Part shown: positions 30,948 to 52,529 of the stretch, in pieces | Position numbering within the stretch: the stretch's first letter is position 1 | How the letters are laid out: the number at the start of each line of letters is the position of its first letter | Source: Bacilli bacterium | GTDB lineage: Bacteria > Bacillota_I > Bacilli_A > ML615J-28 > CAG-313 | Length of the DNA: 60,766 nucleotides | Assembly: GCA_017398545.1 (NCBI GenBank) | Contig: JAFQFT010000074.1 | Span: 1 to 60,766 of the forward strand | Direction of reading: 5' to 3' | Notes under the pieces: model-generated | Told to the model about the DNA's origin: nothing | Databases searched by the model: none | The model's input: the letters and a program-made list of their open reading frames with translations, nothing else | Position numbers and translations under genes: made by a program

Positions 30948-31892
30948 ATGAAGAAAAACAAAATTATTTTATTAACCATGATTTATGTTGTAAGTTTATT
31001 AATATTTGTATTATTATTATTAAGTATTGAATCATATAAATGCGATGCAATTATAAATAGTTTTAATGATTCTTTACATAATGGTAATGGTCAAAGTGTC
31101 AAAGTAATTATCCTTGCAGGACAATCTAATGCATCTGGTTGTAGTAGAGATGATTATCTAAGAAAAAATGTTAGTACAGATAAATATTTAGAATATGAAA
31201 CTGGATATGATAATGTATATATTAATTATTTTGCATCTAGTTCGAATGTATCAAATGGTTTTGTGAAATGTAGTACTAGACAAGGTGAAGCAGGAGGATA
31301 TTTTGGTCCAGAACTTGGTATTGCAGAAAGATTACATGATGAATTTCCTAATGAGATGTTTTTTATTATAAAGTGGGCATGGGGAGGCACTAATTTATAT
31401 GATCAATGGTTATCTCCTTCAAGTAAAGGTAAAACGGGAAAATTATATAAACAATTTATAAAATATGTTGACAATAGTTTAATGTATTTAGAACATAAAA
31501 ATTATAATATTAAAATTGAAGGACTTTGTTGGATGCAAGGCGAATCCGATTCATTTTCTGAAGAAAATGCAATTAATTATAAAAATAATTTAAATAATTT
31601 TATAAACGATATTCGTAAAAAATTTTCAAAGTATGCATCAAATGATGGTCTTGCATTTATTGATGCTTGTATTGCTAATAATCCTGTTTATTGGGTGTAT
31701 TGTGATTTTGTAAATGAATCAAAAAAAGAAGTTTCGAAATTATCTAATTTAAACACTTTAATTGATACAAATGCATGTGGCTTATCTTGTTCAAATGAAC
31801 CGATTGAAGCTCCTGATATTCCGCATTATGATTCTTTAAGTCAAATTAAACTTGGTAATTTATTTGCAGAGGAACTTATAAAATTCTTTTAA
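30948..31892 (+). CDS. Membrane-anchored acetyl-esterase-like protein (SASA / CE6-type SGNH fold)
   Basis: A 314-residue protein with an N-terminal membrane anchor (about 6-26) and an external hydrolase domain. Catalytic features of the sialate-O-acetylesterase-like family: nucleophile S60 in LAGQSNASG, the WMQGESD block (195-201), and D290-x-x-H293 in PDIPHYD. Such enzymes remove acetyl groups from carbohydrates. Its place between a PBP and murE suggests it could act on wall glycans or surface polymer; this is inference from position only. An extended -10 candidate (TGT TATATT, 30909-30917) precedes it and a terminator follows, so it is its own unit. Confidence 0.8.
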   Translation: MKKNKIILLTMIYVVSLLIFVLLLLSIESYKCDAIINSFNDSLHNGNGQSVKVIILAGQSNASGCSRDDYLRKNVSTDKYLEYETGYDNVYINYFASSSNVSNGFVKCSTRQGEAGGYFGPELGIAERLHDEFPNEMFFIIKWAWGGTNLYDQWLSPSSKGKTGKLYKQFIKYVDNSLMYLEHKNYNIKIEGLCWMQGESDSFSEENAINYKNNLNNFINDIRKKFSKYASNDGLAFIDACIANNPVYWVYCDFVNESKKEVSKLSNLNTLIDTNACGLSCSNEPIEAPDIPHYDSLSQIKLGNLFAEELIKFF

Positions 31893-33396: not shown

Positions 33397-34375
33397 TTCT
33401 TTAATTCTTTTAGATTGTATTTTGTTTGTATCTTTCGGAATATTATTATATTTATATTTTTTGCCATTATTAAAAAGATTAAATTTTGGACAAAATGTAA
33501 GGGCACTAGGACCTAAAGAGCATTTTAAAAAGTCTGGAACTCCTACAATGGGAGGAATAATAATTCTAATATGTGTGTTAATTTTCTATAGTTTGTTATT
33601 AATTGAATTTAAATATTTTTATCATGTTGAATTATTAAAATGTTTATTTTTAATAATACCTATTATTTTATATGGAATTATTGGTTTTGTTGATGATTAT
33701 TTAATTGTCATTAAACATAACAATGATGGTATTAAACCTACTTTAAAGTTTATTATTCAGTTAGTTATATCAGTAATTGTGTATTTTTGTTATTTAACAA
33801 TATTTAAGTCTAATGAAATAAATTTCTTTGGAATTATGGTTGATATTAAATTTTTATATGGTTTATTTATTATCTTTTTATTAGTAGGTGTTACTAACGC
33901 AACAAATCTTACAGATGGGATTGATGGCCTTTTATCAATTTGTTCAATAATATCTTATTTGGGATTTGGAATACTTGGAATTTATAAGGGAGAATTAAGT
34001 GTTGTTGTATTTAGTTTTTCAGTAGTATTAGCATTATGTTCATTTCTATTATTTAATCTTCCTACAGCAAAACTATTTATGGGAAATATTGGATCATTAC
34101 TGCTTGGAAGTGGTCTTGTAATGATGAGTATAATTTTACATGTTGAGATACTATTGATATTTATTGGCTTTGTTTATTTTATGGAAGTAGTATCAGTTAT
34201 TTTACAAGTATGGTTTTTTAAGAAAAAGAATGGGGAACGATTATTTAAAATGACACCTATTCATCATCATTTAGAATTATCGGGTTTTAGTGAAATTGAA
34301 ATTGATATTGCGTTTGGGGTTTTACAATTAATAATGACAGTGATAGGTGTATGGCTTGGAATAATGTTTTTCTAA
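33386..34375 (+). CDS. mraY: Phospho-MurNAc-pentapeptide transferase MraY
   Basis: Makes lipid I at the membrane. The 329-residue protein has about ten membrane segments and the family motifs GTPTMGGI (51-58), the acidic pair D103-D104 in GFVDDYL, NATNLTDGIDGL (170-181), FMGNIGSL and the HHH motif in TPIHHHLEL. Its start overlaps murE and its end overlaps murD by 25 bases, so the three are tightly coupled. Confidence 0.95.
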   Translation: MTFNSLILLDCILFVSFGILLYLYFLPLLKRLNFGQNVRALGPKEHFKKSGTPTMGGIIILICVLIFYSLLLIEFKYFYHVELLKCLFLIIPIILYGIIGFVDDYLIVIKHNNDGIKPTLKFIIQLVISVIVYFCYLTIFKSNEINFFGIMVDIKFLYGLFIIFLLVGVTNATNLTDGIDGLLSICSIISYLGFGILGIYKGELSVVVFSFSVVLALCSFLLFNLPTAKLFMGNIGSLLLGSGLVMMSIILHVEILLIFIGFVYFMEVVSVILQVWFFKKKNGERLFKMTPIHHHLELSGFSEIEIDIAFGVLQLIMTVIGVWLGIMFF

Positions 34376-35613
34376 AAAATAAGTTTGTTTTATATGGAAT
34401 GGGAATAAGTAACAAAGAAGTTGAAAAATTCTTTATTAAAAATAATATTAATTATTTAGTTGTTCTTGATGATTTAGATATTGATAATAACTACGTTATT
34501 ATTAAATCCCCTGGTATTCCAAATAATACGACATTCTTAAAAAAATGTCATATGTTAAATTTATTAATTATTAATGATATTGAATTATTTTATTTATTAA
34601 GAACTGATATTAAATATATTGGAATTACTGGCTCTTGTGGAAAGACTACTACATGTAGTGTTTTATATAATATAATGAAGGAAAAATATAAAGTTGGACT
34701 TTGTGGTAATATTGGTATTCCAATCTTTAAGTTTATAAAAGAAGAATTAGATTATTTAATTGTTGAACTTTCTAGTTATCAATTAGAATATATTGATAAA
34801 TTTAGAGTAGATTATTTTATTATTTTAAATGTTTATAATCATCATTTAAATCATCATCAAACTTTTAATAATTATATAAATGCTAAAATGAGTGTGATTA
34901 AGAATTTATCTTTAGATGATACTTTAATTATTAATGATGAATTAAACCATTATTTAAGAGGTCGAGAAATAAAATGTAAGGTATTTACGTATTCTCTCTC
35001 TTTAAAAAGAGATGCTTATTATGAAGATACAAAATTATATTTTAATGATGAAAGATTTGACATTAGTAATATTGAGTATTTTAAATATGAATTTAATAAA
35101 GAAAATTTCTTAAGTATATTTATTTTAATGAAATTATTAATGATTGATAATAAATTAATTATTGATAAGATGAAGAGTTATAGTGGATTACCACACCGAA
35201 TGGAAGAAATAATTAATTTTAATGAATTAATAGTTATTAATGATTCTAAATCAACTAGTTTTAATTCTTTAAATAAGGCTATTGATTATTGTATAAGTAA
35301 TTATGATGATTATGAATTAAATATTATAATAGGTGGAAAAATTGATATAGAAGAAATTAGAAGTAATATTTTATTAATTAGAAAATTAAACAGTTATAAT
35401 GTTTATTGTTATGGTGAAAATAAGGTACTTATTAGTAAAATATTGAATATAAAATATTATCAAAATTTATGTGATGTTATTGATAATGTTAATTTAAATA
35501 TTAAACAAGTTATATTATTTTCACCTGCTGCACAGAGTTTTGATGAATTTAAATCATATGAAGATCGAGGAGAAAAGTTTAAGGAATTGATTTTAAAAAA
35601 GTTAAATAATTAA
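34351..35613 (+). CDS. murD: UDP-MurNAc-L-alanine--D-glutamate ligase MurD
   Basis: Adds D-glutamate to the peptidoglycan precursor. The 420-residue protein has P-loop GSCGKTT (94-100), VELSSYQLEY, and the C-terminal domain with NDSKSTSFNSL. Start ATG 34351 lies 25 bases inside mraY. In Bacillus spoVE/ftsW, murG and murB follow; here a redox-NadD fusion follows instead and the remaining wall genes are elsewhere. Sequence is extremely Asn/Ile/Lys-rich. Confidence 0.92.
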   Translation: MAWNNVFLKNKFVLYGMGISNKEVEKFFIKNNINYLVVLDDLDIDNNYVIIKSPGIPNNTTFLKKCHMLNLLIINDIELFYLLRTDIKYIGITGSCGKTTTCSVLYNIMKEKYKVGLCGNIGIPIFKFIKEELDYLIVELSSYQLEYIDKFRVDYFIILNVYNHHLNHHQTFNNYINAKMSVIKNLSLDDTLIINDELNHYLRGREIKCKVFTYSLSLKRDAYYEDTKLYFNDERFDISNIEYFKYEFNKENFLSIFILMKLLMIDNKLIIDKMKSYSGLPHRMEEIINFNELIVINDSKSTSFNSLNKAIDYCISNYDDYELNIIIGGKIDIEEIRSNILLIRKLNSYNVYCYGENKVLISKILNIKYYQNLCDVIDNVNLNIKQVILFSPAAQSFDEFKSYEDRGEKFKELILKKLNN

Positions 35614-35665: not shown

Positions 35666-37402
35666 ATGAAGAATAAAATTACTAGTATTAATAATTGTTT
35701 AAATTGTAAAAAAGCAGGTTGCAATAATAATTGTTTTATAAGTACCAATATTAAAGATATTATTAATTTAATAAAAGAAGATAAAATTGAAGAAGCTATA
35801 AATTTACATTATAATTATAATAGTATTGGTTTTATATGTGGTATATTATGTGATCATATGCGTGGATGTTTAGGTGGCTGTAATAATAAGAAAAATCCTG
35901 TATCTACAAATGAACTTTGTTATTTATTAGGTGCTGAAAGGCTTAATTTACCTATTTATAAAATGAAACCTCGAAATAAACACGTTGTTATTATTGGTGG
36001 TGGAGTAGCTGGAATGATTGCAGCAGAAAAGTTATTAGAAGCAGGATTTGAAGTATCACTTTATGAAAAAAGTAATAAACTTGGTGGTGTATTAAATTTA
36101 GTAATGCCTGAGTTTAGATATGATATGAGTGTGTTTAATAAATGGGAAGAACGATTAATTAATTTAGGGTTAAAAGTTTATTTAAATAGAACTGTTAAGA
36201 ACTTATCTGATGTTGAACAATTTGATTATTTAGTTGTTGCAACAGGTGCAGGGATTGCCAAAAGATTATATGATGATAGTCTTACAATAGATGCGTTAAA
36301 AATATTAGAAGATGCAAAACTTAATAAATTAAATTTAAATGGATTAGACATTGTAGTTTTAGGTGGTGGAAATACCGCTTATGACGTAGCTCGAGTTGTT
36401 AATCGTCTTGGTAATAATGTTTCAATTGCTTACAGAAGGGATATTATAAATTCACCTGCTGCAATTAAAGAAGTAGAAGTTGCAGTAAGTGAAGGAGTAA
36501 AAGTTTTGGAATGTATTGCACCTAAGGAAATAACTATTTTAGGTAATAAAAAACAAATTAGATTTGTTAAAACTAATCTTGTTAATGATGGTGGAACTCG
36601 TCTTAATTTTAAAGAAACTACAGATGAAATTAATATTACTTGTGATTTAGTAATAGAAGCCATTGGTGCTAATTCAGACCTCAAATTTATTAAGGAAAAT
36701 TACCCATCTTTAATTAATGAAAAAGGTTATGTAACTGATATTGAAAATAATAATATTTATGTTATTGGTGATGCATATAGTGGTGCTAGCAATTTTGCGA
36801 GTGCTAATCTTACAGCACGCATATGTGTTTCTAAAATTATTGAAAAAGAAAAAAGAAGTGTGTTATTTGGTGGATCATTTAATCCTCCTACGATTGCACA
36901 TTATGAAATTATTAAATATTTAAGTAAGAATTATGATGAAGTTTTAGTGTTACCTAATGGTGATACTTATACATTTGCTGGAAAAGTACTAGATTCATTT
37001 AAACACCGAGTTAATATGTTAAATGAAATGGTTAAATATTTACCAAATGTAAAGGTATTAGAACTTGAAAATGATCAAGAATTTATGGGAACTTATTATA
37101 CACTTAGAACTCTAAATCATCCAACATTTGTGCTTGGTGCTGATTGTTTAGATAAACTTCATTTATGGAAACATTTTGATGAATTAATGACTGAAAATAA
37201 TTTCATTGTTTTCAATAGAGGTGAAAGCAATATTTCAAATATGATTAATACTAATATTTATCTTAATAAGTATTTAAATAAGTTTGAAATTATTGATTTA
37301 AATGTTCCTGATGTGTCATCAACTGAGTTTAGAAAGTCTTTAAATAAAGATATTGTTTGTAAAGAAGTTTATGATTATATTATTAAAAATGAACTTTATT
37401 AG
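35666..37402 (+). CDS. Fusion: GltD-like Fe-S/FAD/NAD(P)H oxidoreductase + nicotinate mononucleotide adenylyltransferase (NadD)
   Basis: One continuous 578-residue frame with two enzymes. Residues 1-395 resemble the glutamate synthase small subunit and related flavoproteins: cysteines C11, C14, C19, C23 and C58, C62, C68, C72 for two [4Fe-4S] clusters, FAD loop GGGVAG (111-116), NAD(P)H loop GGGNTA (233-238) and the FAD-closing VIGDA (366-370). Residues about 398-578 are NadD: FGGSFNPPTIAH (401-412), LGADCLDKL with nearby W501, and SSTEFR (551-556). NadD joins nicotinate mononucleotide and ATP on the way to NAD. No frameshift or internal start with a good ribosome site separates them. No gltA-like large subunit is adjacent. 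nadD usually sits near obg with yqeK and rsfS; it is absent from the obg locus here. The redox partner is unknown. Confidence 0.85.
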   Translation: MKNKITSINNCLNCKKAGCNNNCFISTNIKDIINLIKEDKIEEAINLHYNYNSIGFICGILCDHMRGCLGGCNNKKNPVSTNELCYLLGAERLNLPIYKMKPRNKHVVIIGGGVAGMIAAEKLLEAGFEVSLYEKSNKLGGVLNLVMPEFRYDMSVFNKWEERLINLGLKVYLNRTVKNLSDVEQFDYLVVATGAGIAKRLYDDSLTIDALKILEDAKLNKLNLNGLDIVVLGGGNTAYDVARVVNRLGNNVSIAYRRDIINSPAAIKEVEVAVSEGVKVLECIAPKEITILGNKKQIRFVKTNLVNDGGTRLNFKETTDEINITCDLVIEAIGANSDLKFIKENYPSLINEKGYVTDIENNNIYVIGDAYSGASNFASANLTARICVSKIIEKEKRSVLFGGSFNPPTIAHYEIIKYLSKNYDEVLVLPNGDTYTFAGKVLDSFKHRVNMLNEMVKYLPNVKVLELENDQEFMGTYYTLRTLNHPTFVLGADCLDKLHLWKHFDELMTENNFIVFNRGESNISNMINTNIYLNKYLNKFEIIDLNVPDVSSTEFRKSLNKDIVCKEVYDYIIKNELY

Positions 37403-37445: not shown

Positions 37446-37690
37446 GTATTTATATTAAAGTCTATGAATAGGAAGAGTAAATTAATAATAGTAATTAGAG
37501 AATATTCGGTTGGTGAAAGAATATCAAGTTATTAATTGAAGGTAGCCTAGGAGATGTTATTGGGAAAAAAGTAGTACTGATAAACGTAGCTGGCGTTAAC
37601 AGGTAATGAGGGAAGACGTTGTCTTCTAAATTAAGGTGGTACCACGAATATTTATTCGTCCTTAAAAACTTAAGGGCGAATTTTTTATTT
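37446..37690 (+). promoter_or_regulatory. T-box leader of valS, likely valine specifier GTA
   Basis: A T-box riboswitch senses uncharged tRNA and lets transcription continue. Visible: stem I helix AATTAATAA (near 37479) with TTATTAATT (37529-37537); the AGTA/GAA loop-E-like pair; candidate specifier GTA at 37542-37544 just after GAAG, a Val codon; the T-box AAGGTGGTACCACG at 37633-37646; and the terminator ATTCGTCCTTAA (37654-37665) with TTAAGGGCGAAT (37670-37681) plus T run. This explains nearly all of the 319-base gap before valS. Confidence 0.93.
37654..37688 (+). terminator. Regulated terminator of the valS T-box
   Basis: A 12-bp stem with one wobble pair, loop AAAC, followed by T6. It competes with the antiterminator formed by the T-box sequence. 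Confidence 0.9.
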
Positions 37691-50107: not shown

Positions 50108-50218
50108 GTTGCAAAATCTATGAGAATAAGCAACCGCACAAGAAGAGTCTTTAAGAATAATTATTATAATTATCACTCTGATGGCGTGTCTTAAATTTTA
50201 ATGAGGAGGTGCTTTTAG
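50108..50218 (+). ncRNA. Probable L21 leader RNA of the rplU operon
   Basis: About 110 untranslated bases precede rplU. A long-range hairpin is possible: GCAC (50136-50139) with GTGT (50186-50189) and AGAGT (50144-50148) with ACTCT (50175-50179). Firmicutes rplU transcripts commonly carry an L21 leader thought to mediate autoregulation; this assignment is by position plus structure, not by a covariance match. Confidence 0.45.
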
Positions 50219-51251: not shown

Positions 51252-52529
51252 ATGTTTGTAGATAGTGTCAAAATTCACGTTAAAGCGGGAGATGGTGGAG
51301 ACGGGATTGTAGCATTTTTACATGAAAAATATATGGACAAAGGTGGTCCATCAGGTGGACACGGTGGTCGTGGTGGAAGTGTTATCTTTGTTGGAGAAGA
51401 AGGCTTAACTACGCTTCTTGACTTTAGATTTAATCGTAAAATTAAAGCACAACCTGGACAAAAAGGTATGGATAAAAATTGTGCTGGTAAAAAAGGTGAA
51501 AATACTTATGTAAAAGTCCCTGTTGGAACAACGATTATTAATGCTGAAACTAACCAAGTAATTGGTGATATCACTAAACATAACCAAGAAGTTATTGTTG
51601 CACATGGTGGTCGTGGTGGTAAGGGTAATGCTGCTTTTGCTAGTCCTAGAAATACTACTCCACAATTTGCAGAAAAAGGGATTAAAGGTGAAGAATTTGA
51701 TGTTCAATTAGAACTAAAAGTTTTAGCTGATGTTGGACTTGTAGGTTTTCCTAGTGTAGGTAAATCTACATTAATTAGCGTTGTTTCTAAAGCAAAACCT
51801 AAAATTGCTGCATATCACTTTACAACTCTTGTTCCAAATCTAGGTGTTGTTGGTGTAGGGGACGGAAGAAGTTTCATTATGGCTGATTTACCAGGCTTAA
51901 TTGAAGGTGCTTCAAGCGGGGCTGGTCTTGGAATTCAGTTTTTAAAACATATTGAAAGAACTAAAGTAATCGTTCATATTATTGATATGTCTGCAACAGA
52001 TGGAAGAGATCCAGTTGAGGATTATAAAATAATTAGAAAAGAACTTGGTGATTTTAAAGAAGATTTATTAAAACGTGCTGAAATTTTAGTAGCTAATAAA
52101 ATGGATGTACCAGGTGCAATAGATAACTTGAAACGTTTTAAAGAAGAAACTGGTATTAAAAATATCATTCCAATTAGTGCTTATACAAAAGATAATTTAA
52201 ATGAATTGTTGTATAAAATAGCAGATACACTAGATGAAGTAAGATCTAAAGTTGATTATCAAGTAATCACTGATACAGTAGTTGAATATAACTTTGTTCC
52301 AGAAAAAGCAAAATTTGAAATCACAATGGATGATTCTGGATTCTTCCATGTAGATGGTCCAGCCATTGAAAAGATATTTGAAAGAACTGACTTTAATAAT
52401 GAAGTTAGTGTTAGACAATTTGCACGAGCACTTCGTGACTTAGGAGTTGACGATGAACTTCGTAAACTAGGTGCTGAACAAGGTGAAACAATAATTATTT
52501 TAGGTTATGAATTTGAATTTGTAGCATAA
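51252..52529 (+). CDS. obg: Obg family GTPase (CgtA)
   Basis: GTPase for 50S assembly and stress coupling. The 425-residue protein has the glycine-rich Obg fold (GDGGDGIVAF, GGPSGGHGGRGG), G domain with P-loop GFPSVGKS (165-172), DLPGLIEG and NKMD, and a C-terminal OCT domain (from about 345), which Gram-positive members carry. ATG 51252 follows GAGGTGAAA. In Bacillus spo0B lies between rpmA and obg; it is absent here. Confidence 0.96.
   Translation: MFVDSVKIHVKAGDGGDGIVAFLHEKYMDKGGPSGGHGGRGGSVIFVGEEGLTTLLDFRFNRKIKAQPGQKGMDKNCAGKKGENTYVKVPVGTTIINAETNQVIGDITKHNQEVIVAHGGRGGKGNAAFASPRNTTPQFAEKGIKGEEFDVQLELKVLADVGLVGFPSVGKSTLISVVSKAKPKIAAYHFTTLVPNLGVVGVGDGRSFIMADLPGLIEGASSGAGLGIQFLKHIERTKVIVHIIDMSATDGRDPVEDYKIIRKELGDFKEDLLKRAEILVANKMDVPGAIDNLKRFKEETGIKNIIPISAYTKDNLNELLYKIADTLDEVRSKVDYQVITDTVVEYNFVPEKAKFEITMDDSGFFHVDGPAIEKIFERTDFNNEVSVRQFARALRDLGVDDELRKLGAEQGETIIILGYEFEFVA

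Follow-up and report, generated by a model that had tools for sequence, protein, structure and literature searches.

An in-frame fusion of a GltD-like iron-sulfur flavoprotein module with NadD in uncultured gut-type bacteria of one small family

The window analyzed here, a 60,766-nucleotide stretch of a Bacilli bacterium (contig JAFQFT010000074.1), carries on its forward strand an open reading frame (35666..37402) that starts with ATG and encodes 578 amino acids plus a stop. A preliminary sequence-only reading had described this gene as a one-frame fusion of an oxidoreductase with NadD, and our analysis confirmed it: the frame is single and uninterrupted, it is kept in four other genomes, and its three Pfam domains, Fer4_20 (residues 9-84), Pyr_redox_2 (106-371), and CTP_transf_like (400-557), all score above the gathering cut-offs. 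With the ligand alignment, the two-[4Fe-4S] domain spans residues 9-85 (35690..35920, +), and it is followed by the FAD and NAD(P)H domain (residues 106-371, 35981..36778, +), which carries the motif loops GGGVAG and GGGNTA. In the AlphaFold2 model, the last oxidoreductase helix (residues 377-394, 36794..36847, +) is separated by a three-residue junction from the NadD domain (residues 398-578, 36857..37399, +), identified by Pfam, NCBIfam, and the motifs GGSFNPPTIAH, GAD..LW, and SSTEFR. A GltD-like [4Fe-4S]/FAD/NADPH module of approximately residues 9-394 is thus followed by a complete NadD with almost no linker. In NCBIfam, the N-terminal part matched NAD(P)-binding or GltD-like models best and the C-terminal part nicotinate nucleotide adenylyltransferase, at scores below the curated cut-offs. 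Neither a second nadD nor a second GltD-like protein was found in the window genome assembly (1.83 Mb, 76 contigs, 88% complete).

The upstream neighbor is a Mur ligase gene (34351..35613, +), assigned as murD by its position in the cell wall cluster, and downstream lies the T-box leader of valS (37455..37666, +), which begins the next transcription unit. The fusion had been credited with its own promoter; we found no convincing site in the 52-base gap after murD, and promoter-like sites were fewer than in shuffled sequences (12 found, 18.7 expected). The observation that nadD is absent beside obg was borne out, as obg (51252-52529) is followed by an ECF transporter. A ribosomal protein L21 leader (50122-50201) lies ahead of the L21-obg region, and the cell wall cluster also contains a SASA-type carbohydrate esterase gene (30948-31892) between a penicillin-binding protein and a Mur ligase.

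NadD is essential and is usually a stand-alone enzyme. The NadD half of the fusion scored 56.8 bits against PF01467 (cut-off 21), and both the GGSFxPPxxxH and SSTxxR motifs were present. Its score against the NadD equivalog model TIGR00482 was 101.1 bits, below the cut-off of 112.45, with motifs intact; a NadD-NadE protein of the same family (G005) also falls below this cut-off (88.6 bits), indicating lineage divergence. Compared with solved NadD structures (5llt, 1kam), the fusion shares the full domain and the nucleotidyltransferase motifs but differs in its N-terminal reductase and in having PTIAH where PHxGH is usual, a variant common to unfused NadD of the same order. The window genome contains PncB and NadE, the latter as a separate gene on another contig (C34), and lacks NadA. 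PncB is present and NadA absent in each of the five fusion genomes, whereas NadA occurs in all five genomes whose NadD is unfused, a pattern drawn from few lineages and confounded by ancestry. Nicotinate salvage is therefore the visible route to NAD in the fusion genomes. In another genome of the same genus (G013, 95% complete), no NadD, NadA, PncB, or full NadE was found, and this organism may be an NAD auxotroph or its assembly may miss contigs. In G002 and G004, the module, NadD, and NadE all appear to be missing, but this was not used as evidence, because a single contig missing from the assembly could account for the three absences.

The reductase half has both the two-cluster domain and the FAD/NAD(P)H domain of a GltD-like module, and among solved structures it is closest to NfnL, GltD, and the N-terminal part of dihydropyrimidine dehydrogenase. 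The best fold match was NfnL/NfnB, the large subunit of NADH-dependent ferredoxin:NADP oxidoreductase (Pyrococcus furiosus NfnI, PDB 5jca; Foldseek E 1.4e-32, 28% identity), with which it shares the Fe-S ligand pattern and the FAD/NADPH domain. However, the reductase half is shorter than NfnL, is fused to NadD, has Cys85 in place of Glu126, and lacks an adjacent NfnS-type partner, its neighbors being the Mur ligase and valS. The only PyrK/NfnS-type protein (PF10418) of the genome is encoded on contig C33 next to a DHO_dh gene, as expected for a PyrK-PyrD pair. We therefore rejected the fusion as an Nfn large subunit, since both the Glu ligand and the NfnS-type partner are missing. The PF10418 gene adjoins a PF01180 (DHO_dh) gene in all five fusion genomes (G000 C33, G011 C14, G012 C10, G007 C30, and G009 C1), and none of the other family genomes has such a pair; this pattern looks like shared ancestry, and a pyrimidine link of the fusion was set aside. 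With GltD, the reductase half shares the module of two [4Fe-4S] clusters, FAD, and NADPH, but the fusion scores far below the GltD model cut-offs. The large subunit of glutamate synthase (GltB, PF01645) was absent from 14 of the 15 family genomes, including the window genome, the remaining one (G002) giving one weak match of 91 positions. The fusion was therefore also rejected as a glutamate synthase small subunit, as its genome has no GltB partner. GltD-like modules generally pass electrons from NAD(P)H on to a partner protein or domain (PMC8097209). In the fusion, the cofactor sites were located by sequence and model, and from them we infer the reaction; the arginine pair of a YRRD motif that follows the second Rossmann strand suggests NADPH as the cofactor.

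Eight cysteines had been assigned to two [4Fe-4S] clusters. The module in fact contains nine (residues 11, 14, 19, 23, 58, 62, 68, 72, and 85), and the count of eight cysteine ligands held, with a set that includes Cys85 and leaves out Cys58. Cys11, 14, 19, 23, 62, 68, and 72 align with the cluster cysteines of NfnL. Cys58 aligns with NfnL Thr97 and is replaced by threonine in G012; it is therefore not a ligand. Cys85 (codon 35918-35920) aligns with NfnL Glu126, which is the one ligand of the proximal cluster that is not a cysteine. Cysteine occurs at this position only in three proteins of the window genus (g1); all other homologues aligned, including family members outside this genus, retain glutamate. 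An E126C variant has been engineered in P. furiosus NfnL, where it partly uncoupled bifurcation (PMC9503767), and by alignment Cys85 is its natural equivalent.

Uninterrupted orthologues of the fusion were found at 94% (G011), 70% (G012), 38% (G007), and 35% (G009) identity, so that the fusion is present in five genomes from three genera of one family, G011 and G012 belonging to the genus of the window protein. The G011 fusion is also present on a public contig (SVBG01000003.1, 254 kb; Erysipelotrichaceae MAG). Comparison with G011 gave a dN/dS of 0.18 in the reductase, 0.16 across the junction, and 0.12 in NadD, showing purifying selection on both halves and on the junction. A stop or frameshift at the junction was sought in the related genomes, and the frame was intact in all four orthologues. 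Although a sister genus keeps the same genes separate and overlapping, it is extremely improbable that an assembly error or frameshift joined two genes here, because the same fusion, in the same frame, occurs in independent assemblies of four other family genomes at these four levels of identity, with its junction under selection. Outside the family, no fusion was found in overlapping samples of 395 genomes from the class and 392 from the phylum, plasmid records gave partial matches alone, and a viral fold search returned nothing useful. The sequence-only reading knew of no described enzyme of this kind, and we likewise found no published description of a reductase-NadD fusion in the open-access literature. 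The fusion is genuine and was new to us, and the bacteria that carry it are uncultured, gut-type members of one small family.

Gene order varies within this family. In genus g2 (G001, G003, and G005), the reductase has its own ORF, which overlaps by a few bases (ATGA in G005) with a following ORF that encodes NadD fused to glutamine-type NadE. The NadD-NadE protein, of about 800 aa (L095:5225-7627 (-) in G005, L096 in G003, and L015 in G001), joins consecutive steps of NAD synthesis and is possibly also undescribed. G007 has murD, the fusion, and nadE in that order; G010 has murD, nadD, and nadE and no reductase among them; and G006 has nadD followed by nadE. Two genomes have NadD without the fused module. 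Genera g1 and g5 have the fusion flanked by murD and valS, with a short, ammonia-type NadE encoded elsewhere. All reductase halves in the family, whether or not they are fused, group in a single clade (support 100/99). With fewer rows in the reductase tree, the fused proteins grouped on the same side, weakly supported (78/63), and with more rows they did not; the NadD tree was too weak to separate one fusion event from two (p-AU 0.147). An AroC species tree, in which g1, g4, and g5 as one clade gave p-AU 0.028 and the fusion genera were not cleanly grouped, is a single-gene tree and was left out of dating the fusion.

The nearest stand-alone modules (L045-L062, related Bacilli) share approximately 30-37% identity with the reductase half. 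In related families, the stand-alone module directly follows aroC, overlapping or abutting it, at 11 of 19 loci (L045-L048, L051, L054, L057, and L059-L062), and such overlap or abutment was found in 11 of the 12 f21 loci. Those aroC loci that were read further place it within aroB-aroA-aroQ-aroE-aroC clusters, and at two further stand-alone loci (f19) the module adjoins chorismate mutase. In G185 (L058:1486-2973, +), the same module is fused in frame with chorismate mutase, with CM_2 at residues 418-492. Like the window protein, these modules overlap or fuse with a neighboring gene; unlike it, they lie in a shikimate rather than an NAD context and have glutamate at the cluster ligand. Overlapping genes, aroC and chorismate mutase as neighbors, and the chorismate mutase fusion together indicate that the module tends to fuse with its operon neighbor. 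A separate case of neighboring genes being joined was seen in the window genome itself, where AroE is fused to shikimate kinase (L103:2572-3804, contig C56).

Chorismate synthase needs reduced FMN, and its monofunctional forms rely on an outside source (PMC2386126). Given this need and the aroC context, an NADPH-driven donor role is reasonable for the stand-alone family, which we regard as a candidate electron donor for chorismate synthase on the basis of gene neighborhoods. The reductase half of the fusion might likewise donate electrons to one partner, most likely the FMN bound to chorismate synthase, with NadD as a mere carrier or expression partner, and the presence of aroC in all 15 family genomes is consistent with this. 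However, aroC is not adjacent to the module in this family, so the link is not directly transferable and a donor role of the fusion is something we infer. Moreover, G002 and G010 (96% complete) have aroC, yet their module matches are a short FAD-loop or NadD only. We consider a dedicated donor of this kind unlikely as the explanation of the fusion.

AlphaFold2 predicted the window protein with a mean pLDDT of 92.4 and a pTM of 0.91, placing a helix at residues 377-394 and the first NadD strand at 398; the G007 fusion (pLDDT 92.8, pTM 0.89) has a longer continuous helix (387-418) and its first NadD strand at 422. These models suggest that the halves are joined stiffly, and the confident relative placement leaves room for a real interdomain contact, although a helix predicted between domains can inflate the apparent certainty of such models. 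A flavin/Fe-S module that senses NADPH or redox state could act on NadD through this stiff helical junction, and the near-linkerless, continuous helix with high pTM in two distant orthologues, the genus-specific change from Glu to Cys at a cluster ligand, and niacin salvage as the sole visible route in the fusion genomes are all compatible with such control. However, the window and G007 lineages differ by about 14 residues in the length of the joint, which should shift the halves relative to each other and makes a conserved interdomain interface doubtful. In addition, the module is also found by itself or joined to chorismate mutase, sister genera have NadD without it, and the NadA pattern is limited by shared ancestry as noted above. 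Redox regulation of NadD is accordingly a doubtful reading, and so, a little more strongly, is its extension to a built-in sensor that would let niacin-dependent anaerobes adjust NAD synthesis to their reducing state, with the all-cysteine cluster tuned for this in the window genus. Channeling of substrate or product between the halves, also suggested earlier, has the physical fusion itself in its favor. NadE and NAD kinase stand between NaAD and an NADP(H)-type substrate of the reductase, and NadE is encoded elsewhere; because NaAD, the product of NadD, is not a reductase substrate, channeling is chemically unlikely, and we give it very little weight.

The variable linker, the unfused sister genus, NadD without the module, and the chorismate mutase fusion fit the joining of neighboring genes better than a dedicated sensor. 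We therefore favor, with a probability of roughly 0.6, a bifunctional protein that arose by fusion of adjacent, overlapping, co-translated genes and was kept for shared expression. In such a protein, the C-terminal half, assigned to the NadD family by sequence, would adenylylate nicotinate mononucleotide, supplied by PncB from scavenged nicotinate, to NaAD, which the separate ammonia-type NadE, likewise assigned by family, would convert to NAD. The N-terminal half would take hydride from NADPH to FAD and pass single electrons through the two [4Fe-4S] clusters to another protein. This acceptor is not glutamate synthase; judging from the context of the nearest relatives, a flavin for chorismate synthase or a ferredoxin is plausible. 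The fusion would hold the two activities equal in amount from one translation start, and chemical coupling between them would not be needed.

A natural fusion of NadD with an NADPH Fe-S flavoprotein, under selection in three genera, offers a clean test of whether NAD supply can be wired to redox state, and the same family provides natural controls in the unfused arrangement and the alternative NadD-NadE fusion. The window genus also supplies, in nature, a counterpart to the cluster engineered as NfnL E126C, and the nearest relatives suggest that a so far unassigned family of GltD-like reductases serves chorismate synthase.
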